64,000 nt of DNA from Cupriavidus taiwanensis (lineage in GTDB: Bacteria > Pseudomonadota > Gammaproteobacteria > Burkholderiales > Burkholderiaceae): contig NZ_LT977070.1 in the NCBI RefSeq assembly GCF_900250075.1, positions 1,619,634 through 1,683,633 of the forward strand, given 5' to 3'. The position numbers were made by a program, and so were the translations under genes. Below are positions 10,752 through 23,861 of this stretch, one piece after another. The notes under the pieces were generated by a model. It was not told the origin of the DNA. It made no database searches and worked only from the letters and a program-made list of their open reading frames with translations. Position 1 is the first letter of the stretch. Each line of letters opens with the position of its first letter.

Positions 10752-11384
10752 TCAGCTGTTGCGCGACAGCGCCAGGCGCAGCAGGTCGGCGACGGTGTTG
10801 ACGTTGAGCTTTTCCATGATGTTGGCGCGGTGCGCCTCCACGGTCTTGATGGAAATGCCCAGGTCGTCGGCGATCTGCTTGTTCAGGCGGCCGGCCACGA
10901 TGCGCTCCAGCACCTGCTGCTCGCGCGTGGTCAGCTTGCCCAGCAGGTCCTTGGCGGCGCGCTGTTCGCGCGCGGTGGAGTGGTCGGTGCGGGCCTTCTG
11001 CAGCATGCGCTCGACCAGCGCGCGCAGCTCGGACTCGTCGAAGGGCTTTTCGATAAAGTCGATGGCGCCGCGCTTCATCGTCGATACCGCCATCGGCACG
11101 TCGCCGTGGCCGGTGATGAAGACGATCGGAATGTCGATCTGCTCGGCCAGCATGCGCTCCTGCAGCTCGGGCCCGCTCATGCCGGGCATGCGCACGTCCA
11201 GGATCAGGCAGGACACCTGGCTGGCGTCGTAGGCGGCGAGGAACTGCTCGGCGCTGGTAAAGCTGCGCACCTGATAGCCATTGCCCTCCAGCAGCCAGGT
11301 CAGCGAGTCGCGCATGGCTTCATCGTCGTCGACGATGAACACGGTCTCGCCGCGGTGGGGCGTGGGGTTTGGCGTTGCGGTCAT
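10752..11384 (-). CDS. Two-component response regulator, FixJ/NarL type
   Basis: A 210-residue regulator with a receiver domain (residues 10-125) and a LuxR-type helix-turn-helix (about 145-205). The receiver has the acidic pair in VFIVDDDEAMRDS, the phosphoacceptor Asp in CLILDVRMPGMSG, the switch Thr in VFITGHGD, and Lys in IEKPFDESEL. The output domain reads LTTREQQVLERIVAG and GISIKTVEAHRANIMEKL. The ATG at 11384 has GAGGAG ahead of it. It lies 159 bases downstream of the sensor kinase gene on the same strand, so the two are probably a pair of the FixL/FixJ or DctS/DctR type. The regulon is unknown. Confidence 0.93.
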   Translation of the reverse strand: MTATPNPTPHRGETVFIVDDDEAMRDSLTWLLEGNGYQVRSFTSAEQFLAAYDASQVSCLILDVRMPGMSGPELQERMLAEQIDIPIVFITGHGDVPMAVSTMKRGAIDFIEKPFDESELRALVERMLQKARTDHSTAREQRAAKDLLGKLTTREQQVLERIVAGRLNKQIADDLGISIKTVEAHRANIMEKLNVNTVADLLRLALSRNS

Positions 11385-11543
11385 GTAGTCTCCTCGGGAC
11401 AACAATTCATTGCTGCGAAGTGTAACCGGCAGCGGCCCCCTGTGGCGAGACAGGCCCCCCACGTCGGAGGGGGAGCGGCGCCGCCGGCGCGAGGCATCCG
11501 ATGATGCGCAAGGGTGCGCGTGGCCCGCGCGCGCGGGCTCTGC

Positions 11544-14156
11544 TTATTCGGCCACGGCTTCGGCGGGCGCCGCCTGCAGCGGCAGCATGATCTTGAATGT
11601 ACAACCGATGCCGTCGACATTGTTCTCGACCCACAGCCGGCCCTGGTGCGACTCGATGATCGAGCGGCAGATGTTCAGCCCCATGCCCATGCCGTCGGAC
11701 TTGGTGCTGAAGAAGGGCTCGAACAGCCGCTCCTTGGTGGCCTCGTCGACGCCCGGGCCCTGGTCGATCACGTCGATATGGACGTTGTCGCCGATCTCGC
11801 CTGGCTCGACCCGCGCGTGCAGCCGCACCACGCCGCCGGCGCGCATCGCCGGCAGCCCGGCCATGGCCTCGACCGCGTTCTTGAGCAGGTTCACCAGCAC
11901 CTGTTCGATCAGCACCGGATCGACATAGACCGTCAGCGGCGGCGCCGGCAGCCGGGTCAGGATGGTGACGCGGCGGCGCGTGGCTTCCAGGTCGGCCAGG
12001 CCCACGGCGTCGGCGACGATGTCGTGCAGCGCGGCCTCGCGCCGCTGCGGTTGGCTGCGCTTCACGAAGCCGCGGATGCGGCTGATGATGGTGCCGGCCC
12101 GCACCGCCTGCGCCGAGGTCTTCTCCAGCACCGGGATCAGGTCCTCGGGCGTGCTGCGGCCCGAATGCAGCCTCGCCACCGCGCCCATGCAGTAGTTGTT
12201 GATCGCGGCCAGCGGCTGGTTCAGCTCGTGCGCCAGCGACGACGCCATCTCGCCCATGGTGGTCAGGCGGCTGGTGAACTGCAACCGTTCTTCATGCTGG
12301 CGCGCCATTTCCTCGGCGGCCTTGCGCACGGTGATGTCGGTGGCGATCTGCATCTGCGCCAGGTGGCCGTCGACCCACTGGATATAGCGGCGGCGCACTT
12401 CGAACCATTTCTGCATGTCGGGCACGAACACCTCGCGCGCATCGGAAGCGTATGGCATCAGCTCCGAGGCCGGCAGGCCGGCATAGGCATCGACATAGTC
12501 GGTGTTGTCGCTGGAAACCTGGTCCTTGTCGAGCTCGTCGCCGGCCAGCTTGACGTGGCCCTCGGCCTCCCAGCCGAACAGCTGGCGGTAGTAGCGGTTG
12601 GCGAACAGCAGTTCGGCCTTGTCGGTGGCCAGCACCGACACCGCGGCGTCCAGGCTTTCCAGCACGGTGGTGAAGCGGTCGTGCGCGGCGGCCAGTTCCT
12701 CGCGCGCGCGCTTGGGCTCGGTGATGTCCGTCATCGAGCTCATCCAGCCGGTATGGCGGCCGCGGCTGTCGACCAGCGGCGACACGTACATGCGGGCGTA
12801 GAAGCTGCTGCCGTCGCGGCGCATCACGCGCATCTCGTAGCCGCCGGCGGGCGACTTGCCCTGCAGCGTCAGGTCGATCTGCTTCTGCATCTCCTGCTGG
12901 TCGTTGGGCGGCCAGTAGGGGAAGGGCGGCAGGCGCCCGACCAGGTCGTTCTCCTGCCAGCCGGTCATGCGGCAGAAGGCCGGATTGACGTAGGTGATGC
13001 GGCCGTTCAGGTCGAGCGCGCGCAGGCCGATCAGCATCGAGTTTTCCATCGCGCGCCGGAACGAGGTCTCGGCCAGCAGCGCACGCTGCGCCTCGGAGCG
13101 GCGGCTGGTGTGCCGCCACATGCTCCACAGGCTCCACAGCAGGAAGCAGGACAACCCCACCACCAGCCACAGCAGCATGTTGTTGGGCAGGTTCGATGCC
13201 GGTGGGTAGGCGTCGGCGCGCAGCGACAGCGAATGGCCCGGCGGGTCGAGCAGCACCTCATACGACAGCGCGTTGCCCGGCACCGGCCGCAGCGAGGTGC
13301 TGGCACGGGTCTGGTTGTTCTTGTCGATCAGCGAGAAGCGGTAGCGCTCGGTCAGCTCGGGCGGCAGCAGGTGGGTCAGGATGCCGTTGATCGAATACAG
13401 CGCGCCCAGCGTGCCGAGGAACTCGTTGTCGCGCACGATCGGGACTTCCATCAGCATGAAGCTGTCGCCGCGTTCGTTGACCAGCGGTCGCGAGTAGACC
13501 ACGCGCTGGGTCTCGCGCGCGGCGTCGAAGGTGTCGAGCACTTCGGGCTCGAGCGGCTGGTCCTGGTTTTCGCGCAGGCGGCTGGCGAATTCGGACGTCG
13601 ACGGCAGCGACCAGCGGCCCCGCTTGGTGGCGTCGAGCCAGTTGATGAAGACGATCTCGGGGTTCTCGCGCAGGATTTCCTGCGCCGCGGTGCGGTAGGC
13701 ACCCTGCTCCAGCTGCGCGGCGGCGATGTCGCGCGCGAGCGAGGCCAACTGGTCCTGGTTGCTCAGCAGCGACAGGCGCACGCGCTGCTGCGCCCACGCC
13801 GCGTCGCGGTACAGCGCGTCGCGCTGCTGCTGGCGTTCGGTCTCGTGCAGCGACCACAGGATCACGCCCATCGCCACGGTGAAGAGCACAATGGCAACCA
13901 GCGGGATGAACATGAACCAGCTGGTGGCGACCAGGTTGCGCCAGCGCAGCCACCACAGGCCGCGCGGCGGCGCCACCGGGACGCCGTCGTCCGGTCCCAG
14001 CGCTTCGATCGGCCCCAGGCCGGCCGCCGGAGAAGGCGCATGCGGGACCTGCGCGGACTCGCCGCCGGCGGCCTTGGCTGTACCCAACGCATCGGAGGGA
14101 AGCATGGCGGCACGCAGGCTGCGGAAAAGACGGTCGAGGCGGTTGAAAAACGGCAT
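11544..14156 (-). CDS. Membrane PAS-domain sensor histidine kinase
   Basis: An 870-residue sensor of the DctB/DctS-like kind. After a Pro-rich cytosolic start there is a membrane helix at about 80-102, a periplasmic sensory domain of about 215 residues, and a second helix at about 320-340 (LLWLVVGLSCFLLW). Two PAS domains follow (one with RITYVNPAFCRMTGWQ, one with LLFANRYYRQLFGW). The kinase core has the phosphoacceptor His in SSLAHELNQPLAAINNYC. The ATP-binding part has VNLLKNAVEAM, DQGPGVDEATKERLFEPFF and GMGLNICRSIIESH. The start at 14156 gives MPFFNRLDRLF; an upstream in-frame extension runs through the likely promoter region. The ligand is not known. It is divergent from the pyruvate dehydrogenase operon. 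Confidence 0.92.
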   Translation of the reverse strand: MPFFNRLDRLFRSLRAAMLPSDALGTAKAAGGESAQVPHAPSPAAGLGPIEALGPDDGVPVAPPRGLWWLRWRNLVATSWFMFIPLVAIVLFTVAMGVILWSLHETERQQQRDALYRDAAWAQQRVRLSLLSNQDQLASLARDIAAAQLEQGAYRTAAQEILRENPEIVFINWLDATKRGRWSLPSTSEFASRLRENQDQPLEPEVLDTFDAARETQRVVYSRPLVNERGDSFMLMEVPIVRDNEFLGTLGALYSINGILTHLLPPELTERYRFSLIDKNNQTRASTSLRPVPGNALSYEVLLDPPGHSLSLRADAYPPASNLPNNMLLWLVVGLSCFLLWSLWSMWRHTSRRSEAQRALLAETSFRRAMENSMLIGLRALDLNGRITYVNPAFCRMTGWQENDLVGRLPPFPYWPPNDQQEMQKQIDLTLQGKSPAGGYEMRVMRRDGSSFYARMYVSPLVDSRGRHTGWMSSMTDITEPKRAREELAAAHDRFTTVLESLDAAVSVLATDKAELLFANRYYRQLFGWEAEGHVKLAGDELDKDQVSSDNTDYVDAYAGLPASELMPYASDAREVFVPDMQKWFEVRRRYIQWVDGHLAQMQIATDITVRKAAEEMARQHEERLQFTSRLTTMGEMASSLAHELNQPLAAINNYCMGAVARLHSGRSTPEDLIPVLEKTSAQAVRAGTIISRIRGFVKRSQPQRREAALHDIVADAVGLADLEATRRRVTILTRLPAPPLTVYVDPVLIEQVLVNLLKNAVEAMAGLPAMRAGGVVRLHARVEPGEIGDNVHIDVIDQGPGVDEATKERLFEPFFSTKSDGMGMGLNICRSIIESHQGRLWVENNVDGIGCTFKIMLPLQAAPAEAVAE

Positions 14157-14580
14157 GGGAGGGATTGACGGCTGACCGACCAGTGTACCGAGATTATTGC
14201 GGTGCGTCGCTTGGGGAAAGCGCCAATGAAATCCCGGCGCCGCGTGCCGGCGCTGGCAGGATGGAGGCACGGGGCATGCGGCTCGGGCTGTGATTCTTGG
14301 TGCGCTGCCGCATAATTCCACATTATAAAAAACGATATCGCAATTTGAAAATTTCCCTTGTGCTCGCCATTGGGCTTCCATAGAATCGGTCCGACCCAAG
14401 AATGCGGGCGGTAGCCATGCGCCTGCCGCGCGGAGAAACCGGAACAGGTTTCCCGGCGGCGGCCCCGATGCAAGGCGGCAATGGCGCCGATCTCCGCAAG
14501 TCGGTGCGAGTCATACGTTGAGTCGTGTCCGGCGCTGCCAGCGCGGACGCGGAAGCCAAGAATTCACCCAGGAGACAGTC
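14157..14580. other. Divergent control region between the sensor kinase and aceE
   Basis: No gene is seen in these 424 bases. The stretch 14311-14360 is clearly A+T-rich (cataattccacattataaa and the following acgatatcgcaatttg) in otherwise G+C-rich DNA. This is a likely place for regulator binding and promoter melting. A probable aceE promoter lies at its right edge and leaves a leader of about 190 bases. No promoter for the kinase gene stood out. Confidence 0.5.
14358..14386 (+). promoter_or_regulatory. Candidate sigma-70 promoter of the pyruvate dehydrogenase operon
   Basis: TTGTGC (14358-14363) and TAGAAT (14381-14386) are separated by 17 bases on the plus strand. Transcription would start near 14393, leaving a leader of about 190 bases before aceE. 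The A+T-rich patch just upstream could act as an UP element or operator. Confidence 0.5.
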
Positions 14581-17268
14581 ATGTCCGCCGTACCAGAGCA
14601 GATCCTCGGCGCCTCGAGCGCCAACGACGCCGATCCCCAGGAAACCCATGAATGGCTCGACGCCCTGCAGGGCGTGCTGGCCGCGGAAGGCCCGGCGCGT
14701 GCCGCCTTCCTGATCGACAAGCAGATCGAATACGCACGCGTGAACGGCGTGACCCAGCCGTTCCACGCCGAGACGCAATACATCAACACCATCCCGGTCG
14801 AGCAGCAGGCCCGCATCCCCGGCGACCAGGACATCGAGCACCGGATCCGCTCGTACACCCGCTGGAACGCCATGGCGATGGTGCTGCGCGCCAACAAGCA
14901 CACCAATGTCGGCGGCCATATCTCGTCGTTTGCCTCGGCGGCCACGCTGTACGACGTCGGCTACAACCACTTCTGGCGCGCGCCGTCAGAGCAGAGCGGC
15001 GGCGACCTGGTCTTCGTGCAGGGCCACTCGGCGCCGGGCGTGTACTCGCGCGCCTTCCTGCTCGGTCGCCTGACGCCCGACCAACTCGATAACTTCCGCC
15101 AGGAAGTCGACGGCAAGGGCATCTCGTCGTACCCGCACCCGTGGCTGATGCCGGACTTCTGGCAGTTCCCGACGGTGTCGATGGGCCTGGGCCCGATCAT
15201 GGCCATCTACCAGGCCCGCTTCATGAAGTACCTGGACAGCCGCGGCCTGGCCAAGGCCGGCGACCGCAAGGTCTGGGCCTTCCTGGGCGACGGCGAGACC
15301 GACGAGCCGGAATCGCTGGGCGCGATCGGCATGGCCGGCCGCGAAAAGCTCGACAACCTGGTCTTCGTCATCAACTGCAATCTGCAGCGCCTGGACGGCC
15401 CGGTGCGCGGCAACGGCAAGATCATCCAGGAACTGGAGTCCGAGTTCCGCGGCGCCGGCTGGAACGTGATCAAGGTGGTGTGGGGCAGCAAGTGGGACGC
15501 GCTGCTGGCGCGCGACACCAAGGGCCTGCTGATGAAGCGCATGATGGAATGCGTGGACGGCGAGTACCAGACCATGAAGGCCAAGGACGGCGCCTACGTG
15601 CGCGAGCACTTCTTCAACACGCCCGAGCTCAAGGCCATGGTCGCCGACTGGTCCGACGAGGACATCTGGCGCCTGAACCGCGGTGGCCACGACCCGCACA
15701 AGATCTACGCCGCCTACAAGGCCGCCAGCGAGCACAAGGGCCAGCCCACGCTGATCCTGGCCAAGACCATCAAGGGCTATGGCATGGGCGACGCCGGCCA
15801 GGCCATGAACGTCGCGCACCAGCAGAAGAAGATGCCGGTCGACGCGATCCGCAAGTTCCGCGACCAGTTCAACATCCCGGTCGCCGACGACAAGCTGGAA
15901 GAAGTGCCGTACATCACCTTCGAGGAAGGCTCGAAGGAACTGGAATACATGCGCCAGGCGCGCATGAACCTGGGCGGCTACCTGCCGGCGCGCCGCCAGA
16001 AGGCCGAAGCGCTGCAGGTGCCCGAGCTGAAGGCGTTCGAAGCGCTGCTCAAGGCCACCGGCGAAGGCCGCGAAGTGTCCACCACCATGGCCTTCGTGCG
16101 GATCCTGAACACGCTGCTGAAGGACAAGCAGATCGGCAAGCACGTGGTGCCCATCGTCCCGGACGAGTCGCGCACCTTCGGCATGGAAGGCCTGTTCCGC
16201 CAGGTCGGCATCTGGAACCAGGAAGGCCAGAAATACGTGCCGGAAGACCATGACCAGCTGATGTTCTACAAGGAATCGCAGACTGGCCAGGTGCTGCAGG
16301 AAGGCATCAACGAAGCCGGCGCCATGTGCGACTGGATCGCTGCCGCGACGTCGTACTCGACCCACGGCGTGCAGATGATCCCGTTCTACATCTACTACTC
16401 GATGTTCGGCATCCAGCGTATCGGCGACCTGTGCTGGGCCGCCGCCGACATGCGCTCGCGCGGCTTCCTGCTGGGCGGCACCGCCGGCCGCACCACGCTG
16501 AACGGCGAAGGGCTGCAGCATGAAGACGGCCATTCGCACGTGTTCCACGCCGTCATCCCGAACTGCATCTCGTACGACCCGACCTTCCAGTACGAACTGG
16601 CGGTGATCATGCAGGACGGCCTGCGCCGCATGTATGCCGAACAGGAAGACGTCTACTACTACCTGACGGTGATGAACGAGAACTACGAGCACCCGGAAAT
16701 GCCGGCTGGCGTAGAGCAGGACATCGTCAAGGGCATGTACCAGTTCCGCAAGGGCGTCGAGAACAGCAACGCGCCGCGCGTGCAGCTGCTGGGCTCGGGC
16801 ACGATCTTCCGCGAGGTGATCGCCGCGGCCGAGCTGCTGAAGAAGGACTGGGGCGTCGAATCCGACCTGTGGGGCTGCCCGAGCTTCACCGAGCTGGCGC
16901 GCGACGGCCAGGCCGCCGAGCGCTACAACCTGCTGCATCCGGCCGAGACCCAGCGCGAAGCCTTTGTCACGCAGAAGCTGAAGTCGGCGCGCGGCCCGGT
17001 GATTGCCTCGACCGACTACGTGCGCACCTTCGCCGAGCAGATCCGTCCGTACGTGCCGCGCCGCTACGTGGTGCTGGGCACCGACGGCTTCGGCCGCTCG
17101 GACACGCGCGAGAAGCTGCGCCACTTCTTCGAAGTGGACCGCTACTGGGTCACGCTGGCCGCGCTCAAGGCGCTGGCCGACGAAGGCGCGATCGGCCGCG
17201 ACAAGGTCGCCGAGGCCATCAAGAAGTACAACCTCGACCCGAACAAGCCCAACCCGATGTCGGTCTGA
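14581..17268 (+). CDS. aceE: Pyruvate dehydrogenase E1, homodimeric type
   Basis: An 895-residue thiamine-diphosphate enzyme that decarboxylates pyruvate and reductively acetylates the lipoyl group of E2. The length and the single-chain form match E. coli-type AceE (about 887). Thiamine-diphosphate binding is visible in FLGDGETDEPESLGAI followed by LVFVINCNLQRLDGPVRGNG. Other AceE segments are NVGGHISSFASAATLYDVGYNHF and LGGTAGRTTLNGEGLQHEDG. The ATG at 14581 has AGGAGA 6 to 7 bases before it, in the phrase caggagacagtcATG. It is the first gene of an operon with E2, a proteasome-like protein and E3. Confidence 0.97.
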   Translation: MSAVPEQILGASSANDADPQETHEWLDALQGVLAAEGPARAAFLIDKQIEYARVNGVTQPFHAETQYINTIPVEQQARIPGDQDIEHRIRSYTRWNAMAMVLRANKHTNVGGHISSFASAATLYDVGYNHFWRAPSEQSGGDLVFVQGHSAPGVYSRAFLLGRLTPDQLDNFRQEVDGKGISSYPHPWLMPDFWQFPTVSMGLGPIMAIYQARFMKYLDSRGLAKAGDRKVWAFLGDGETDEPESLGAIGMAGREKLDNLVFVINCNLQRLDGPVRGNGKIIQELESEFRGAGWNVIKVVWGSKWDALLARDTKGLLMKRMMECVDGEYQTMKAKDGAYVREHFFNTPELKAMVADWSDEDIWRLNRGGHDPHKIYAAYKAASEHKGQPTLILAKTIKGYGMGDAGQAMNVAHQQKKMPVDAIRKFRDQFNIPVADDKLEEVPYITFEEGSKELEYMRQARMNLGGYLPARRQKAEALQVPELKAFEALLKATGEGREVSTTMAFVRILNTLLKDKQIGKHVVPIVPDESRTFGMEGLFRQVGIWNQEGQKYVPEDHDQLMFYKESQTGQVLQEGINEAGAMCDWIAAATSYSTHGVQMIPFYIYYSMFGIQRIGDLCWAAADMRSRGFLLGGTAGRTTLNGEGLQHEDGHSHVFHAVIPNCISYDPTFQYELAVIMQDGLRRMYAEQEDVYYYLTVMNENYEHPEMPAGVEQDIVKGMYQFRKGVENSNAPRVQLLGSGTIFREVIAAAELLKKDWGVESDLWGCPSFTELARDGQAAERYNLLHPAETQREAFVTQKLKSARGPVIASTDYVRTFAEQIRPYVPRRYVVLGTDGFGRSDTREKLRHFFEVDRYWVTLAALKALADEGAIGRDKVAEAIKKYNLDPNKPNPMSV

Positions 17269-17434
17269 TCCGGCAGCCTGCACCCACCCCCGCAGTACGG
17301 CAACGCCGTGCCGCGGGCGCCCCGGCACAGTCCCGATGGCGCCTTGCGGCATGGCGGCGTGACAGAAGCGGGCGGCGAAGGTAATCTCGCCGCTTGCGGA
17401 TGTCGCGCGTGCCGGCCTGCTCAGGAGACACTGA

Positions 17435-19108
17435 ATGAGTCAAGCAATTGAAATCAAGGTGCCGGATATCGGCGACTATGACGCCGTCCCCGTCATCGAA
17501 GTGCATGTGAAACCCGGCGACAGCATCAACGCGGAAGACGCGCTGGTGACGCTGGAATCGGACAAGGCCACCATGGACGTGCCCTCGCCGCAGGCCGGCG
17601 TGGTCAAGGACGTCCGCATCAAGGTGGGCGACAACGTGTCCGAAGGCTCGGTGCTGGTGATGCTCGAAGCGGCGAACGAGGCCTCCGCGGCACCGTCCGC
17701 CGCCGCGCCCGCTCCGGCGCCTGCCGCCGCGGCACCTGCGCCCGCTCCCGCGCCGGCAGCTGCTCCCGCGGCTGCGCCTGCTGCCGGCGGTGGCGGCACA
17801 GTCGAGGTCAAGGTGCCCGATATCGGCGACTACGATGCCGTGCCGGTCATCGAAGTCCACGTCAAGCCGGGCGACACCATCAACGCGGAAGACGCGCTGG
17901 TGACGCTGGAATCCGACAAGGCAACCATGGACGTGCCGTCGCCGCAGGGCGGCGTGGTCAAGGAAGTCAAGGTCAAGGTTGGCGACAATGTGTCCGAAGG
18001 CACGCTGCTGCTGATCCTGGAAGGCGCCGCCGGCGCGGCCGCCGCACCGGCTCCGGCTGCCGCGGCGGCCCCGGCCCCGGCCCCGGCCGCAGCCAGCGCG
18101 CCCGTCCCGGCCCCCGCGCCCACGGCTGCCCCCGCGCCGGCAGCAGCGCCCGCCGCCGCGCCGGCAGTCGCTGGCGTAAGCGGCAAGGCCGCCCATGCCA
18201 GCCCCTCGGTGCGCAAGTTCGCGCGCGAGCTGGGCGTCGACGTGTCGCGCGTGGCCGGCACCGGCCCCAAGGGCCGCATCACCCAGCAGGACGTGCAGAG
18301 CTACGTCAAGGGCGTGATGACCGGCCAGGCCGCCGCGCCGGCCCAGGCCGCCGCGGCTGGCGGCGGCGGTGGCGAGCTTGGCCTGCTGCCGTGGCCGAAG
18401 GTCGATTTCACCCGCTTCGGCGAGGTCGAAAGCAAGGCCCTGTCGCGCATCAAGAAGATTTCCGGCGCCAACCTGCACCGCAACTGGGTCATGATCCCGC
18501 ACGTCACCAACCATGACGAAGCGGACATCACCGAGCTGGAAGCCTTCCGCGTGCAGCTGAACAAGGAAAACGAGAAGTCCGGCATCAAGGTGACCATGCT
18601 GGCCTTCATGATCAAGGCCACGGTCGCGGCGCTGAAGAAGTTCCCCAACTTCAATGCCTCGCTCGATGGCGACAACCTGGTGCTGAAGAAATACTTCAAC
18701 ATCGGTTTTGCCGCCGACACCCCGAACGGCCTGGTCGTGCCGGTGATCAAGGACGCCGACAAGAAGGGCGTGCTCGAGATCAGCCAGGAAATGAGCGAGC
18801 TGGCCAAGCTGGCGCGCGACGGCAAGCTCAAGCCGGACCAGATGCAGGGCGGCTGCTTCTCGATCTCGTCGCTGGGCGGCCTGGGCGGTACGTACTTCAC
18901 GCCGATCATCAATGCGCCGGAAGTGGCCATCATGGGCGTGTGCAAGTCGTTCCAGAAACCGGTGTGGGACGGCAAGCAGTTCGTGCCGCGCCTGACGCTG
19001 CCGCTGTCGCTGTCGTGGGACCACCGCGTCATCGACGGTGCCGAGGCCGCGCGCTTCAACACGTACTTTGCGCAATTGCTGGCGGACTTCCGCCGTATCC
19101 TGCTCTAA
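17435..19108 (+). CDS. aceF: Pyruvate dehydrogenase E2 (dihydrolipoamide acetyltransferase)
   Basis: A 557-residue core subunit that carries acetyl groups on swinging lipoyl arms to coenzyme A. Two lipoyl domains are present (about 2-76 and 120-195), each with [13 protein letters not shown]; the lipoylated lysines are Lys44 and Lys162. Long Ala/Pro linkers separate them. The E1/E3-binding domain is at about 250-285 ([20 protein letters not shown]). The acetyltransferase domain ends with the active-site motif around [15 protein letters not shown] (His530, Asp534). E. coli has three lipoyl domains; two is usual for this group. The near-identical lipoyl repeats in DNA could recombine. AGGAGA precedes the ATG. 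Confidence 0.97.
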
Positions 19109-19167
19109 CTCGGCAGCGCGCACCGGCATTGCCGGTGTGCGCCCAAGCCTGACGATAGGAGCGAGCC

Positions 19168-19812
19168 ATGACTACCTGTGTTGTCGTCAAGAAGGGTGCC
19201 GAGGTGGCGATCGCGGCGGACGCGCTGGTCACCTTCGGCGATACGCGGCTGTCGCGCGCGTATGAGCGCAACCAGAAGGTCTTCCCGGTCGGCGACGGCT
19301 TTATCGCGCTGGCCGGGACGACCGCGCACTTTCCGGTCATGCGCACGCTGCTGGCGGGCCTGGGCGAGGAATGCAGGCTGGGCTCGCGCGACGACGTGTT
19401 CCGCACCTTCCTGAAGGTGCACGAGAAGCTGAAGACGGACTACTTCGTCAACACCAAGGAAGACGATGACGATCCCTACGAGTCGTCGCAGATCGTATGC
19501 CTGATCGCCAATCCGGCGGGCATCTTCGGCGTCTACTCGTATCGCGAGGTGTTTTCGTTCGACCGCTTCTGGGGCATCGGCTCGGGCCGCAACTACGCGC
19601 TGGGCGCGATGCACGCGGTCTATGACCGGCCGGACCTCGGCGCGGGCGAGATCGCGCGCATCGGTGTCGATGCCGGCGTGGAGTTCGACAAGAGTTCGTC
19701 GGGACCGATCGAGATGCACACGGTGCGGCTGCACCAGGAAGACGCCGCGGCGGCACTCGCCGACGATGCCGCGGCCGGCGACGCAGCAACCAACAACGAC
19801 GGCGCGCCCTGA
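19168..19812 (+). CDS. Proteasome-fold Ntn hydrolase, betaproteobacterial proteasome homolog (BPH)
   Basis: A 214-residue relative of HslV and proteasome beta subunits. If the initiator Met is removed, the mature chain begins Thr-Thr-Cys, as HslV begins Thr-Thr. Mature Asp17 sits in AIAADALVTFGDTR, against AGDGQ in HslV, and a Lys before VFPVGDG fits the position of HslV Lys33. ALAGTTAHF parallels the HslV FAGGT loop. These suggest a live N-terminal-threonine active site. The family has been described structurally as BPH, a double-ring complex in betaproteobacteria. The C-terminal 25 residues are acidic and Ala-rich. It has its own AGGAG-type site and lies 59 bases after E2 and 33 before E3, so it is made with the pyruvate dehydrogenase complex. 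Partner unfoldase and substrate are unknown. Confidence 0.82.
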   Translation: MTTCVVVKKGAEVAIAADALVTFGDTRLSRAYERNQKVFPVGDGFIALAGTTAHFPVMRTLLAGLGEECRLGSRDDVFRTFLKVHEKLKTDYFVNTKEDDDDPYESSQIVCLIANPAGIFGVYSYREVFSFDRFWGIGSGRNYALGAMHAVYDRPDLGAGEIARIGVDAGVEFDKSSSGPIEMHTVRLHQEDAAAALADDAAAGDAATNNDGAP

Positions 19813-19845
19813 AGCCGAGAGGCCGGCGCGCATAGAGGAGCAAAT

Positions 19846-21630
19846 ATGAGTGTGATCGAAGTCAAGGTGCCGGATATCGGCGATTTCGACGCGGTGGAAG
19901 TGATCGAGGTGCTGGTCAAGGCCGGCGACACGGTCGAGGTGGAGCAGTCCCTGATCGTGCTGGAATCCGACAAGGCCAGCATGGACGTGCCGTCGTCGGC
20001 CGCCGGCAAGGTGGTCGACGTCAAGGTCAAGGTGGGCGACAAGGTGGGCCAGGGCGCGGTGATCTGCACCATCGAGGCCCAGGCTGGAGCAGCCGCCGCG
20101 CCTGCCCCGGCCCCGGCCCCGGCACCCGCGCAGGCCCCTGCGCCCGCGCCCGCCGCAGCGCCTGCCCCGGCGGCCGCCAGCCATGCCGGCGGTGCCGATA
20201 TCCAGTGCGAGATGCTGGTGCTGGGTGCCGGCCCTGGCGGCTACTCGGCCGCCTTCCGCGCCGCCGACCTGGGCATGAACACCGTGCTGGTGGAACGCTA
20301 CAGCACGCTCGGCGGCGTCTGCCTGAACGTGGGCTGCATCCCGTCCAAGGCGCTGCTGCACAACGCCGCGGTGATCGACGAAGCCAAGGCGCTGGCCGCC
20401 CACGGCATCCTGTTCGGCGAAGCCAAGATCGACCTGGACGGCCTGCGCCACTACAAGAACCAGGTGGTGGGCAAGCTGACCGGCGGCCTGGCCGGCATGG
20501 CCAAGGCGCGCAAGGTTCAGGTGGTGCGCGGCATCGGCAACTTCCTCGATCCGCACCACATGGAAGTGGAACTGACCGAGGGCGAGGGCAAGCGCAGCAC
20601 CGGCAAGAAGACCGTGATCCGCTTCGAGAAGGCCATCATCGCCGCAGGCAGCCAGGCGGTGAAGCTGCCCTTCATCCCGGAAGACCCGCGCATCGTCGAT
20701 TCGACCGGCGCGCTGGAGCTGCCGGAAGTGCCCAACAAGATGCTGGTCATCGGCGGCGGCATTATCGGCCTGGAAATGGCGACGGTGTACAGCACGCTGG
20801 GTGCCGACATCGATATCGTAGAAATGCTGCCGGGGCTGATGAACGGCGCCGACCGCGACCTGGTCAAGGTCTGGGAAAAGAAGAACAAGGACCGCTTCGG
20901 CAAGGTCATGCTGAACACCAAGACGGTCGCGGTGGAAGCCAAGCCGGACGGCATCTACGTCAGCTTCGAGGGCGAGCAGGCGCCGGCCGAGCCGCAGCGC
21001 TATGACCTGGTGCTGGTGTCTGTGGGCCGCTCGCCCAACGGCAAGCGCATCAGCGCCGAGAAGGCCGGCGTTGCCGTGACCGACCGCGGCTTTATCGACG
21101 TCGACAAGCAGATGCGCACCAACGTGCCGCACATCTACGCGATCGGCGATATCGTCGGCCAGCCGATGCTGGCGCACAAGGCCGTGCACGAAGCCCACGT
21201 GGCGGCCGAGGCCGCGCATGGCGAGAAGGCCTTCTTCGATGCCAAGCAGATCCCGTCGGTGGCCTTTACCGATCCGGAAGTGGCCTGGGCCGGCCTGACC
21301 GAGGACGAGTGCAAGGCGCAGGGCATCAAGTACAGCAAGGGCGTATTCCCGTGGGCCGCTTCGGGCCGCGCCATCGCCAACGGCCGCGACGAGGGCTTCA
21401 CCAAGCTGATCTTCGACGAGGAAACGCACCGCGTGATCGGCGGCGGCATCGTCGGCACGCACGCCGGCGACCTGATCAGCGAAGTGTGCCTGGCGATCGA
21501 GATGGGCGCCGACGCGGTGGATATCGGCAAGACCATCCATCCGCACCCGACGCTGGGCGAGTCGATCGGCATGGCGGCCGAGATCTACGAAGGCACTTGC
21601 ACCGACGTGCCGCCGCCGCGCAAGCGTTGA
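19846..21630 (+). CDS. lpdA: Pyruvate dehydrogenase E3 (dihydrolipoamide dehydrogenase) with N-terminal lipoyl domain
   Basis: A 594-residue flavoenzyme that reoxidises dihydrolipoamide with NAD. Unlike E. coli Lpd it carries its own lipoyl domain at residues 2-75 (Lys43 in [10 protein letters not shown]), then an Ala/Pro linker to about residue 118; this form is typical of Cupriavidus and Neisseria. The flavin-binding fold starts at [20 protein letters not shown]. The redox disulfide is in [19 protein letters not shown] binding uses [19 protein letters not shown]. The C-terminal catalytic dyad is in [16 protein letters not shown]. The gene is called pdhL in C. necator literature. It is the last gene of the operon, with a terminator just after it. 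Confidence 0.97.
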
Positions 21631-21652
21631 GGCGCTGTCCGCTGCGATGACA

Positions 21653-21680
21653 AGGCCCGCCTTGATGGCGGGCTTTGTTT
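21653..21680 (+). terminator. Intrinsic terminator of the pyruvate dehydrogenase operon
   Basis: A GCCCGCC/GGCGGGC stem (21655-21661 with 21667-21673, 5-base loop), extended by a G-U and an A-T pair, is followed by TTTGTTTTG. It lies 22 bases after the E3 stop codon. Confidence 0.8.
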
Positions 21681-21784
21681 TGCACGGTTTCGCAATTAAC
21701 CGCCTTAACTTGTCCACGCCAATGCATGGCGGCTTGCAGCGACAGGGGAAAAGGGCGCGGGGAAAGGCTGGCTGAGGCGAGATC

Positions 21785-21816
21785 AAAAAAAAACCCGACC
21801 TGTAGAGGTCGGGTTT
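21785..21816 (-). terminator. Intrinsic terminator of phaP1
   Basis: An 11-bp stem (21791-21801 with 21806-21816, loop GTAG) is followed on the minus strand by a run of nine T (plus-strand A at 21785-21793). It lies about 175 bases past the phaP1 stop, so the phasin mRNA has a long 3' leader-out region that contains a second hairpin. Confidence 0.85.
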
Positions 21817-21908
21817 AACGATACCTTTGGACAAGGAGACCGCGGTACCGAGGAGACATCGGCAGACAAGGCAGCGCCGGGCCGGTCGGTCATGGCACTC
21901 CCTTCATC

Positions 21909-21954
21909 GTTGGCGAAGCCCACCGCCTGCGCGGGGTCGATGGGCTTTGCCAAC
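21909..21954 (-). repeat. Long hairpin in the phaP1 3' untranslated region
   Basis: Bases 21909-21922 pair with 21941-21954 over 14 positions (gttggcgaagccca against the complement of tgggctttgccaac, one G-U pair) around an 18-base loop. A second inverted repeat, GGACCGGCC/GGCCGGTCC at 21955-21974, touches it on the right, nearer the phaP1 stop. Neither has a T-run, so they are not obvious terminators. They may protect the abundant phasin mRNA from 3' decay; that role is inference. Confidence 0.5.
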
Positions 21955-21991
21955 GGACCGGCCGGGGCCGGTCCATCTTCAACGCAGGCTA

Positions 21992-22570
21992 TCAGGCAGC
22001 AGCGGCCTTCTTCGCCGTGGCCGTGCGGGCCGTGGCGCTGGCTTGCTGGGCAGCCTTGGTGGCAGCAGTGGCGGCGGCCTGGAAGTTGGTTTCAGCGATT
22101 TCGACCGCTTGCTTGGTCGCCTTCTGCACCGACTCGTAGGCGTTGTTGGCAGCGGAGATTGCCGACTTCACGATGGCCACGGTCGATTCCGAACCGGCCG
22201 GGGCGTTCTTGGCGAAGTTCTCGACCAGAGCCTGGACGTTCTTCGAGCCTTCGGCCAGCTGGGCCTCGGCCACCTTGGCGAATTCGCTCTGGGTTTCCGA
22301 AGCGATCTCGTACAGGTGACGGGTGTATGCCAGGGTCTTTTCGGCGACCGGCTGCACGGCCGCGGCCTGGATCGCCAGCAGTTCCTGCGCGTCCTTGGCC
22401 GACAGCGCCTTCTTGGCGTTGTCCACGCCTTCGGCGAAGCTGGTCTTGACGACCTGCAGGTTCAGTTCGACGAGCTTTTCGACGCCTTCAAACGCCTTGG
22501 TGGTCAGGCCGAACAGCGTTTCGAGGTTAGCCTTTTGTGCTGCTGCGACTTGTTCCGGGGTGAGGATCAT
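21992..22570 (-). CDS. phaP1: Phasin PhaP1, polyhydroxyalkanoate granule coat protein
   Basis: A 192-residue amphipathic helical protein that coats poly(3-hydroxybutyrate) granules and sets their size and number. The whole sequence reads as the R. eutropha PhaP1, from [20 protein letters not shown] to the Ala/Lys-rich tail ending TAKKAAAA, at the same length. There is no signal peptide or membrane helix. The ATG at 22570 has GGAG 9 bases before it. It is transcribed alone, from a strong promoter flanked by two PhaR-type operators, and ends in its own terminator. In this organism PhaR represses phaP1 until growing granules titrate the repressor away. Confidence 0.96.
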
Positions 22571-22701
22571 TGCTGGTCTCCAGTGGTGAACTTCAAGGTC
22601 AAGCAAGTTAAGCCGCCTAGATGTCAGGACCGTGACGGTGTTTCGCCGTTTCGGCCAGCCCAGGCGTGTGGGTGGGTCAGGGCGCCAATCCGTTGGTTCG
22701 T

Positions 22702-22717
22702 TTGTGCGCCGCAACAA
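22702..22717 (-). promoter_or_regulatory. PhaR-type operator at the phaP1 transcription start
   Basis: An imperfect palindrome with a TGC-GCC-GCA core (plus strand ttgtgcgccgcaacaa). It covers the expected start site, about 6 to 20 bases past the -10 box. It shares the TGC-N3-GCA layout with the upstream site and matches the reported PhaR footprint at the phaP1 start. Confidence 0.7.
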
Positions 22718-22722
22718 GCCGT

Positions 22723-22750
22723 ATTGTAGGGACAGCCAAATCAATGTCAA
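22723..22750 (-). promoter_or_regulatory. Sigma-70 promoter of phaP1
   Basis: On the minus strand TTGACA (22750-22745) and TACAAT (22728-22723) are 16 bases apart, close to consensus. This fits the very high phasin level once repression is lifted. One PhaR-type site overlaps the start point and the other lies just upstream of the -35 box. The leader before the ATG is about 145 bases. Confidence 0.85.
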
Positions 22751-22755
22751 GGAGT

Positions 22756-22778
22756 TTTTGTGCGTTGCACAAAATCCG
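22756..22778 (-). promoter_or_regulatory. PhaR-type operator upstream of the phaP1 -35 box
   Basis: A perfect 19-base inverted repeat, ttttgtgc-gtt-gcacaaaa (22756-22774). Its right arm plus flank, GCACAAAATCCG (22767-22778), fits the PhaR consensus GCAMMAAWTMMD published for R. eutropha (recalled from the literature). It starts 6 bases upstream of the -35 hexamer. Confidence 0.78.
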
Positions 22779-22934
22779 GGTCGACCGAGCTTAAGGCAAG
22801 TGGCGTGGTAGCCATCTCGCCCCCCCGGCAATGCCCGGACAGGGGTGCTACCATGCCAGGCTGCCCGCGCCGGTACGGCCGGCCGAGGCTGGAACACCAA
22901 CAAGATGTGAACAGGATCGCCCAGGCCTCATTCC

Positions 22935-23861
22935 ATGCTCGCTTTCTACGCCGACCACTTCGTGCTGCCGCTGCCGCCAGGACATCGCTTCCCCATGCGC
23001 AAGTACAGCATGCTGCGCGACGCGGTGTCGGCCCAGGTGCCGGGGCTGCGCCTGTCCGAGGCGCCGCGTGCCGGCGACGATGCGCTGCTGCTTGCACACA
23101 CCGCGGAATACGTAGAGGCGGCCTCGGCCGGCACGCTCGACCCGGCGCGCCAGCGCGAGATCGGTTTTCCGTGGTCCGAAGCAATGGTGGAACGCTCGCG
23201 CCGGTCGGCCGGCGCCACCATCGAGGCCTGCCGCAGCGCGTTGCGTGAAGGCATAGCCGTGAACCTGGCGGGTGGCACGCATCACGCGTATGCGGACAAG
23301 GGCGGCGGCTTCTGCGTCTTCAACGATGCCGCGATCGCTGCACGCGTGCTGCAGCGCGACGGCGCGGTGCGCCGCGTGGCGGTGATCGACCTTGACGTGC
23401 ATCAGGGCAACGGCACCGCATCGATCCTGCACGGCGACTCATCGGTATTCACGCTATCGCTGCATGGCGAGAAGAACTATCCGTTCCGCAAGGAAGCAAG
23501 CGACCTCGACGTCGGCCTGCCGGATGGCTGCGACGACGAGGCCTACGCGCAGGCGTTGCAGACAGCGCTGGACACGCTGTTCCGCCGCTTCGAGCCCGAC
23601 CTGCTGATTTACCTGGCGGGCGCGGACCCGCACGAGGGCGACCGGCTCGGGCGGTTGAAGCTGACCATGGCTGGCCTGGCACGGCGCGACCGCCTGGTGT
23701 TCGACGCCGCGCAAGCACGTCGGCTGCCGGTGGCGGTGACCATGGCCGGCGGCTACGGCAACCAGATCGAAGACACCGTTGCCGTCCATGCGCAGACGGT
23801 GCGGCTCGCCGCGCAATATCACGCCCGGTACGCGCAACTTGCCGCGCGGCTTGCCTCATGA
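22935..23861 (+). CDS. Histone deacetylase-family zinc deacetylase (AcuC/HDAC-like)
   Basis: A 308-residue cytosolic zinc hydrolase of the arginase/deacetylase fold. Bacterial members remove acetyl groups from acetylated polyamines, lysines or small amides; the substrate here is not known. Catalytic and metal motifs are intact: NLAGGTHHAY, FCVFNDAAIAA, VIDLDVHQGNGTA (zinc Asp and His), SLHGEKNYPF, YLAGADPHEGDRLG (second zinc Asp), and GGYGNQ near the end. The N-terminus (LPLPPGHRFPMRKY) is typical of the bacterial group. The ATG at 22935 follows the divergent phaP1 control region. The next gene starts inside its stop codon, so the two are coupled. Confidence 0.92.
   Translation: MLAFYADHFVLPLPPGHRFPMRKYSMLRDAVSAQVPGLRLSEAPRAGDDALLLAHTAEYVEAASAGTLDPARQREIGFPWSEAMVERSRRSAGATIEACRSALREGIAVNLAGGTHHAYADKGGGFCVFNDAAIAARVLQRDGAVRRVAVIDLDVHQGNGTASILHGDSSVFTLSLHGEKNYPFRKEASDLDVGLPDGCDDEAYAQALQTALDTLFRRFEPDLLIYLAGADPHEGDRLGRLKLTMAGLARRDRLVFDAAQARRLPVAVTMAGGYGNQIEDTVAVHAQTVRLAAQYHARYAQLAARLAS

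Follow-up and report, generated by a model that had tools for sequence, protein, structure and literature searches.

A predicted proteasome homologue within the pyruvate dehydrogenase operon of Cupriavidus taiwanensis, and the unlike core operons that house its family

The closest described system is the betaproteobacterial proteasome homologue (BPH) itself. According to the principal account (Fuchs et al. 2018, PMC5777263), BPH of C. metallidurans and T. denitrificans assembles into tetradecameric double rings (PDB 5OVS, 5OVT and 5OVU). Although epoxomicin was bound at Thr1, activity in vitro was absent on standard substrates, peptides or casein. The same account reports that the residues contacting HslU are lost in the family, that pull-downs from C. 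metallidurans recovered neither pyruvate dehydrogenase (PDH) subunits nor HslU, and that Ser replaces Thr at position 1 outside betaproteobacteria; one heading calls BPH 'constitutively expressed'. It describes three contexts of the gene, for which Valas and Bourne 2008 (PMC3235984) is cited: the PDH operon in C. metallidurans, an association with argG in T. denitrificans and one with Hsp33 in Laribacter. The occurrence of BPH in a PDH operon, the core of what is described here, is thus already published. HslV of HslVU shares the proteasome β fold and Thr1 with BPH but is sixfold, whereas the published BPH rings are sevenfold, and PMC8665760 states that BPH has no known ATPase partner or interacting unfoldase. 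The same paper describes further proteasome-like homologues of the BPH superfamily that have no known ATPase partner, among them connectase, a monomeric ligase in contrast to the double ring of the BPH structures.

The window, a 64,000-nucleotide stretch of the C. taiwanensis genome, holds at 19168–19812 (+ strand) a 214-residue open reading frame that, on Pfam, structure-sequence and alignment matches, is assigned to BPH and lies between the E2 and E3 genes of the PDH operon. It matches Pfam PF00227 (Proteasome) with 29.4 bits (cut-off 22.4). By sequence, the two nearest solved structures are BPH depositions, 5ovu (E 4.3e-109, residues 2–189) followed by 5ovs (E 7e-37); the best HslV chain comes next (E 1e-4). 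These matches bear out the BPH-family assignment of the initial annotation. Its description of the protein as HslV-like stands as kinship, through the proteasome fold, but not as identity, since the NCBIfam cut-offs for HslV are not reached (29.6 bits against 137, and 28.3 against 157.75). The cut-off of TIGR03634, the archaeal proteasome β subunit, is not reached either (19.5 of 224 bits). Unlike HslV, the window protein has no adjacent hslU, its neighbours being aceF and lpd. Elsewhere in the genome, PF00227 is matched strongly at G000:C1:455510 (L001), which by eye we take to be HslV, with an adjoining frame that reads like HslU, and a third match, below cut-off, at G000:C1:1505014 (L003), which by eye we presume to be Anbu. 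Anbu shares the proteasome fold with BPH but is a separate gene with different neighbours.

The translation starts MTTCVVVKKG, with the nucleophile directly after Met and no propeptide; removal of Met, published for the C. metallidurans protein (PMC5777263), would leave a mature Thr-Thr N terminus. In mature numbering, the catalytic residues are Thr1, Asp17 and Lys36, accompanied by G49 and S138. Among 225 BPH sequences of the order, 222 begin with Thr and 3 with Ser at position 1, Asp and Lys are present in all 225, the oxyanion Gly is invariant and the equivalent of Ser129 is Ser in 216. A wider set of 190 sequences, overlapping the first, retains Asp17 and Lys36 throughout, with Thr (153) or Ser (37) as residue 1. 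The intact proteasome-type active site proposed initially from the Thr-Thr terminus, Asp17 and a fitting Lys is therefore upheld, and Thr and Lys, far from being absent in most homologues, are nearly or fully invariant among the 225. Both published proteins, from C. metallidurans and T. denitrificans, are of the same family and share the active-site residues and the acidic loop, and the former lies in the same PDH operon.

This loop, residues 92–108 (YFVNTKEDDDDPYESSQ; 19441–19491, + strand), is delimited here by alignment and acidic excess, whereas the term pore loop is that of PMC5777263. Its acidic excess has a median of 5 (range 4–5) in 20 PDH-context sequences, that of the window included, and medians of 4–6 across all contexts, the lowest rows of two unassigned groups reaching −1 and 0. 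Beyond the fold, alignment and length comparison delimit an Ala/Asp-rich C-terminal tail (19738–19809, + strand), which is long and variable in Cupriavidus (total length 198–228 residues) and whose greater length sets the window protein apart from the published BPH. The tail is missing from the 190-residue Ralstonia copies, although a copy titled Ralstonia (L059) has 210 residues. Names derived from NCBI and UniRef mislabel BPH as 'MFS transporter' in at least 15 of the 120 matches listed, a wrong and widespread label that hides the family in public databases. A literature search for the putative locus tag H16_A1376 returned nothing.

The surrounding operon comprises aceE, encoding E1 (14578–17268, +; TIGR00759, 1645.9 bits; start codon uncertain, the longest frame opening at 14518); aceF, encoding E2 with two lipoyl domains, an E3-binding domain, a catalytic domain and Ala/Pro linkers (17435–19108, +; Pfam and TIGR01348, 741.6 bits); and, downstream of BPH, lpd/pdhL, encoding E3 with an N-terminal lipoyl domain (19846–21630, +; Pfam and TIGR01350, 479.6 bits). 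The tight placement noted initially is confirmed, with spacers of 59 nt (E2–BPH) and 33 nt (BPH–E3), each carrying AGGAG before the start codon; that upstream of BPH, resembling a ribosome-binding site, lies at 19157–19161 (+). The neighbours that could be named from roughly 10.7 to 26 kb, by family matches and, for one response regulator, by eye, include no AAA+ gene, in agreement with the earlier remark that no ATPase partner is encoded nearby. A pattern scan of 14300–23000 found no σ70-like promoter on the + strand and fewer terminator-like sites than in shuffled sequence, the only one on the + strand lying within BPH (19536, stem of 5 bp).

The E2–BPH spacer contains a hairpin with a 12-bp stem, a 3-nt loop and no T-run (19116–19142, +; the stretch has a fold z of −2.80). 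Relatives carry hairpins of unrelated sequence in the corresponding spacers, where the median fold z is −2.79 for spacers of 40–350 nt (n=89 of 96 PDH loci). A role as a BPH-specific regulator was considered and rejected, because E1–E2 spacers are at least as structured (median z −3.77, n=74); BPH–E3 spacers show little structure (−1.33, n=18). Spacer structure is a habit of the PDH operon, not of BPH.

Several features around the operon are recorded in their own right. Divergent to aceE, the − strand (10752–14399) encodes a PAS sensor histidine kinase and, read by eye, a response regulator, which may control the PDH operon. A phasin gene (TIGR01841; 21992–22903, −) converges on the operon end and by position links polyhydroxyalkanoate granules with acetyl-CoA supply, and a histone-deacetylase-fold protein (PF00850) is encoded nearby at 22935–23861 (+). 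In 9 of 80 named loci (L049, L053, L054, L056, L061, L068, L070, L080 and L111), the contig ends about 1–1.6 kb upstream of BPH, inside aceF, where assemblies may break at the Ala/Pro linkers and the lipoyl repeats.

The gene-order comparison suggested by the initial annotation was carried out with a profile built from 18 BPH proteins (A1; E≤1e-20), which gave 145 matches; of the 399 genomes sampled from the GTDB order, 143 had at least one. Apart from the window itself, all 144 loci were retrieved with up to 6 kb per side and their neighbours searched by tblastn, neighbour families being named through NCBIfam from one representative each. The E2–BPH–E3 arrangement was found in 15 of these loci, and argG upstream in 45. 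Downstream of BPH, hsp33 follows at no more than 1.2 kb in 56 loci, and hsp15 at no more than 1.5 kb in 16 others; one locus had gluQ only and 11 had none of these neighbours, some lying at contig ends. The PDH arrangement thus extends beyond close relatives, over seven GTDB family codes, but accounts for only 16 of the 145 sampled loci when the window is included, and BPH is not confined to PDH. Among named loci, the best 80 of 284 confirmed and hence the closest, all 80 read E2–BPH–E3, including those of Cupriavidus, Ralstonia, Pandoraea, Noviherbaspirillum and Collimonas.

In 5 of the 15 retrieved PDH loci (L121, L122, L125, L127 and L151), the E2 stop and BPH start overlap by 4 nt, as against none of the 80 named loci and 5 of the 96 PDH loci measured overall; this overlap suggests tuned co-production in some families. 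The same start–stop coupling recurs with another partner in the hsp33 context, where in some loci (L187, L194–L196, L198 and L201–L203) BPH begins inside the end of cinA/pncC with a 4-nt overlap. As a separate observation, in 42 of the 45 argG-context loci (for example L211–L213 and L219–L220), yajQ, of a cyclic-di-GMP-binding family, follows BPH within 400 nt.

A broader profile (A2) matched 44 of 370 genomes of the class, 43 besides that of the window. In these 43 genomes, all outside the order, 30 matches lie in a riboflavin operon, identified through neighbours on representatives: 29 loci read ribD–BPH–ribE and one, at a contig end, has ribE only. In this riboflavin set (L277–L304, L307 and L318), the fullest loci read nrdR–ribD–BPH–ribE–ribBA. 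Of the other 13, two adjoin nrdR and 11 have none of the riboflavin or nrdR neighbours. Within the flanks covered (at most 1.5 or 6 kb, less where a contig ended), neither E2 nor E3 adjoins BPH in any of the 43 loci, and in a 397-genome sample of the phylum none of the 13 positives lies outside the class. The word riboflavin is absent from PMC5777263 and PMC8665760, and a literature search covering main texts open without subscription gave nothing relevant; relative to these two papers, the riboflavin operon is a fourth context of BPH and is new here. Ser follows the start codon in all 29 loci L277–L305. Across the 41 sequences outside the order that are readable at residue 1, 34 have Ser (29 of 29 riboflavin rows and 5 of 12 others) and 7 have Thr, so that the riboflavin type obeys the published rule of Ser1 outside betaproteobacteria, whereas some of the weaker matches break it. 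The seven weaker Thr1 matches (L308, L310, L312–L315 and L317) have no known context, and some weaker matches outside the order may belong to other proteasome-like families rather than to BPH. One riboflavin-operon BPH (L318; G749:C1:1041269–1041680) is split into two matches with its first part missing and is apparently a broken copy.

When 151 BPH proteins were placed in an unrooted tree (LG+G4, quick search), the 22 PDH rows formed one side of a branch with an SH-aLRT value of 98. This clade spans the seven family codes f1, f3, f7, f9, f19, f20 and f48, suggesting that the gene moved into the E1–E2–E3 operon, most simply once, in the clade ancestor. Rooting the family with HslV as outgroup was rejected, the outgroup branch being 10 changes per site long; in that tree, the PDH rows do not stay together and the outgroup joins the longest PDH row. 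BPH is under purifying selection like the PDH enzymes, with dN/dS values of 0.006–0.113 over 12 pairs against 0.012–0.154 for E1, E2 and E3 (one pair without E1). These low values, together with the constant order in the best 80 of 284 confirmed loci, argue that placement between E2 and E3 is not due to chance.

The move left little mark on the protein, as in a comparison of 20 more evenly sampled PDH rows Y125 is the only residue that the PDH clade has fixed and that other rows seldom carry. By the same measure, the argG clade has 16 such positions, the riboflavin rows have 2 and the hsp33/hsp15 rows none. An active-site specialization of the PDH clade was considered on the strength of nine residues in a 96-row PDH set, which over-represents Cupriavidus, Ralstonia and Pandoraea, and was abandoned when even sampling left only Y125, the 20-row test using a slightly looser cut. 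The S1 positions in this comparison are mapped after those of the proteasome.

The gene has also been lost without disturbing the operon. In a family sample, BPH occurs in 54 of 200 genomes and 3 of 25 genera; family f48 has 4 genomes with and at least 7 without it. Among the Cupriavidus genomes listed, 17 have BPH and 6 lack it. Four of these six have a readable E2; all four place E3 directly after E2, and the spacers of 24, 24, 24 and 64 nt contain no BPH match. Absence from the other two (G453 and G494) was not counted as loss, since E2 was also not found and assembly gaps may be responsible. In a 33-row tree, the four BPH-less genomes group as a single clade nested among the others, most simply pointing to one loss within Cupriavidus with the E1–E2–E3 order kept. 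One locus (L258) keeps AACAACGAC just 5′ of E3, which matches the end of the window BPH tail, a match that is no more than suggestive. The lipoyl-to-catalytic distance of E3 is 117–131 in the four BPH-less loci against 112–132 in 27 BPH-bearing ones. E2 is 556 residues long in the one BPH-less locus measurable in the same way, against 550–573 in BPH-bearing loci (n=9); the remaining open frames give 559 (L259), a shorter 529 (L260) and only 328 residues (L271).

Taken together, these data make it probable, though well short of certain, that BPH is an ATP-independent housekeeping chamber peptidase, placed in strong operons for steady expression and not acting on PDH as its substrate. This reading is favoured because the same enzyme core is kept although its gene occupies four or more dissimilar core operons, because BPH was lost without loss of PDH genes, and because the published pull-downs contained no PDH subunits. 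BPH would be a double-ring, N-terminal-threonine chamber peptidase of proteasome fold, in which Met removal exposes Thr1 and Asp17 and Lys36 serve as general-base pair. It would work without an ATPase, its acidic loop admitting only short or unfolded chains to the chamber. After a move into the E1–E2–E3 operon, most simply a single one in the clade ancestor, the gene would have stayed there for the steady, growth-linked expression that the operon provides. What we infer is peptidase activity in the cell, a broad range of substrates, the single move, and that the position was kept for the sake of expression. PDH genes are highly induced in the growth phase of R. eutropha H16 according to a passage of PMC3734047 in which the BPH gene is not named, and BPH is on that basis likely to be most abundant in growth phase. 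Such induction is hard to square with a published heading that reads 'constitutively expressed' and counts against the housekeeping reading, as do the absence of in vitro activity on peptides or casein and the E2–BPH overlap in a third of the retrieved PDH loci. The HslV-outgroup tree, which splits the PDH rows, also counts against it, though that root is distrusted, and expression alone explains only loosely a position kept in seven family codes.

Fuchs et al. (2018) propose a stress protease that degrades oxidized or heat-damaged proteins without ATP, like an uncapped 20S proteasome, with PDH subunits as one client class. The hsp33 or hsp15 gene downstream of 72 of the 144 loci favours this view, as does their own argument on stress links, but in the same account (PMC5777263) carbonylation patterns in extracts or in E. 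coli are unchanged by BPH. The riboflavin and argG–yajQ contexts are, moreover, not obviously stress operons, and we regard this explanation as unlikely. A quality control dedicated to PDH, in which E2 or E3 chains that are damaged or fail to assemble would be trimmed or removed by BPH, entering at their flexible Ala/Pro linkers, was the function initially suggested for the window protein. The faithfully kept position, between E2 and E3 in all of the best 80 of 284 confirmed loci, and the overlap with E2 in some families speak for a dedicated role in this clade. Against it stand orthologues that have identical catalytic residues and the acidic loop but lie in other kinds of operon (beside hsp33/hsp15, argG–yajQ and ribD–ribE), the clean loss in Cupriavidus with E1–E2–E3 kept and readable linkers mostly in the usual range, the single clade-specific residue and the lack of PDH subunits in the published pull-downs (PMC5777263), which together render it improbable. 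The alternative offered alongside it, that BPH merely shares a strong promoter, fits better.

That BPH is instead a specific processing enzyme or ligase, acting like connectase on one conserved protein present in all bearers, appears quite improbable. Its inertness on standard substrates despite a Thr1 reactive to epoxomicin (PMC5777263), the acidic loop kept in each main context and the connectase precedent (PMC8665760) agree with such a role, but no candidate partner was found, and the absence of BPH from many genomes, with one loss in Cupriavidus, implies that a target cannot need it for survival. Finally, E3 is a flavoprotein and ribD–ribE serve flavin synthesis, and on this shared flavin theme BPH could be seen as a relocating housekeeping peptidase, locked in each lineage between consecutive core-operon genes, that clears flavoenzyme chains failing cofactor loading or assembly, a highly improbable reading under which the E2–BPH–E3 and ribD–BPH–ribE positions would be functional and not just handy.

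For the BPH family as a whole, the map of its gene contexts narrows the range of possible roles and makes a PDH-specific function unlikely.
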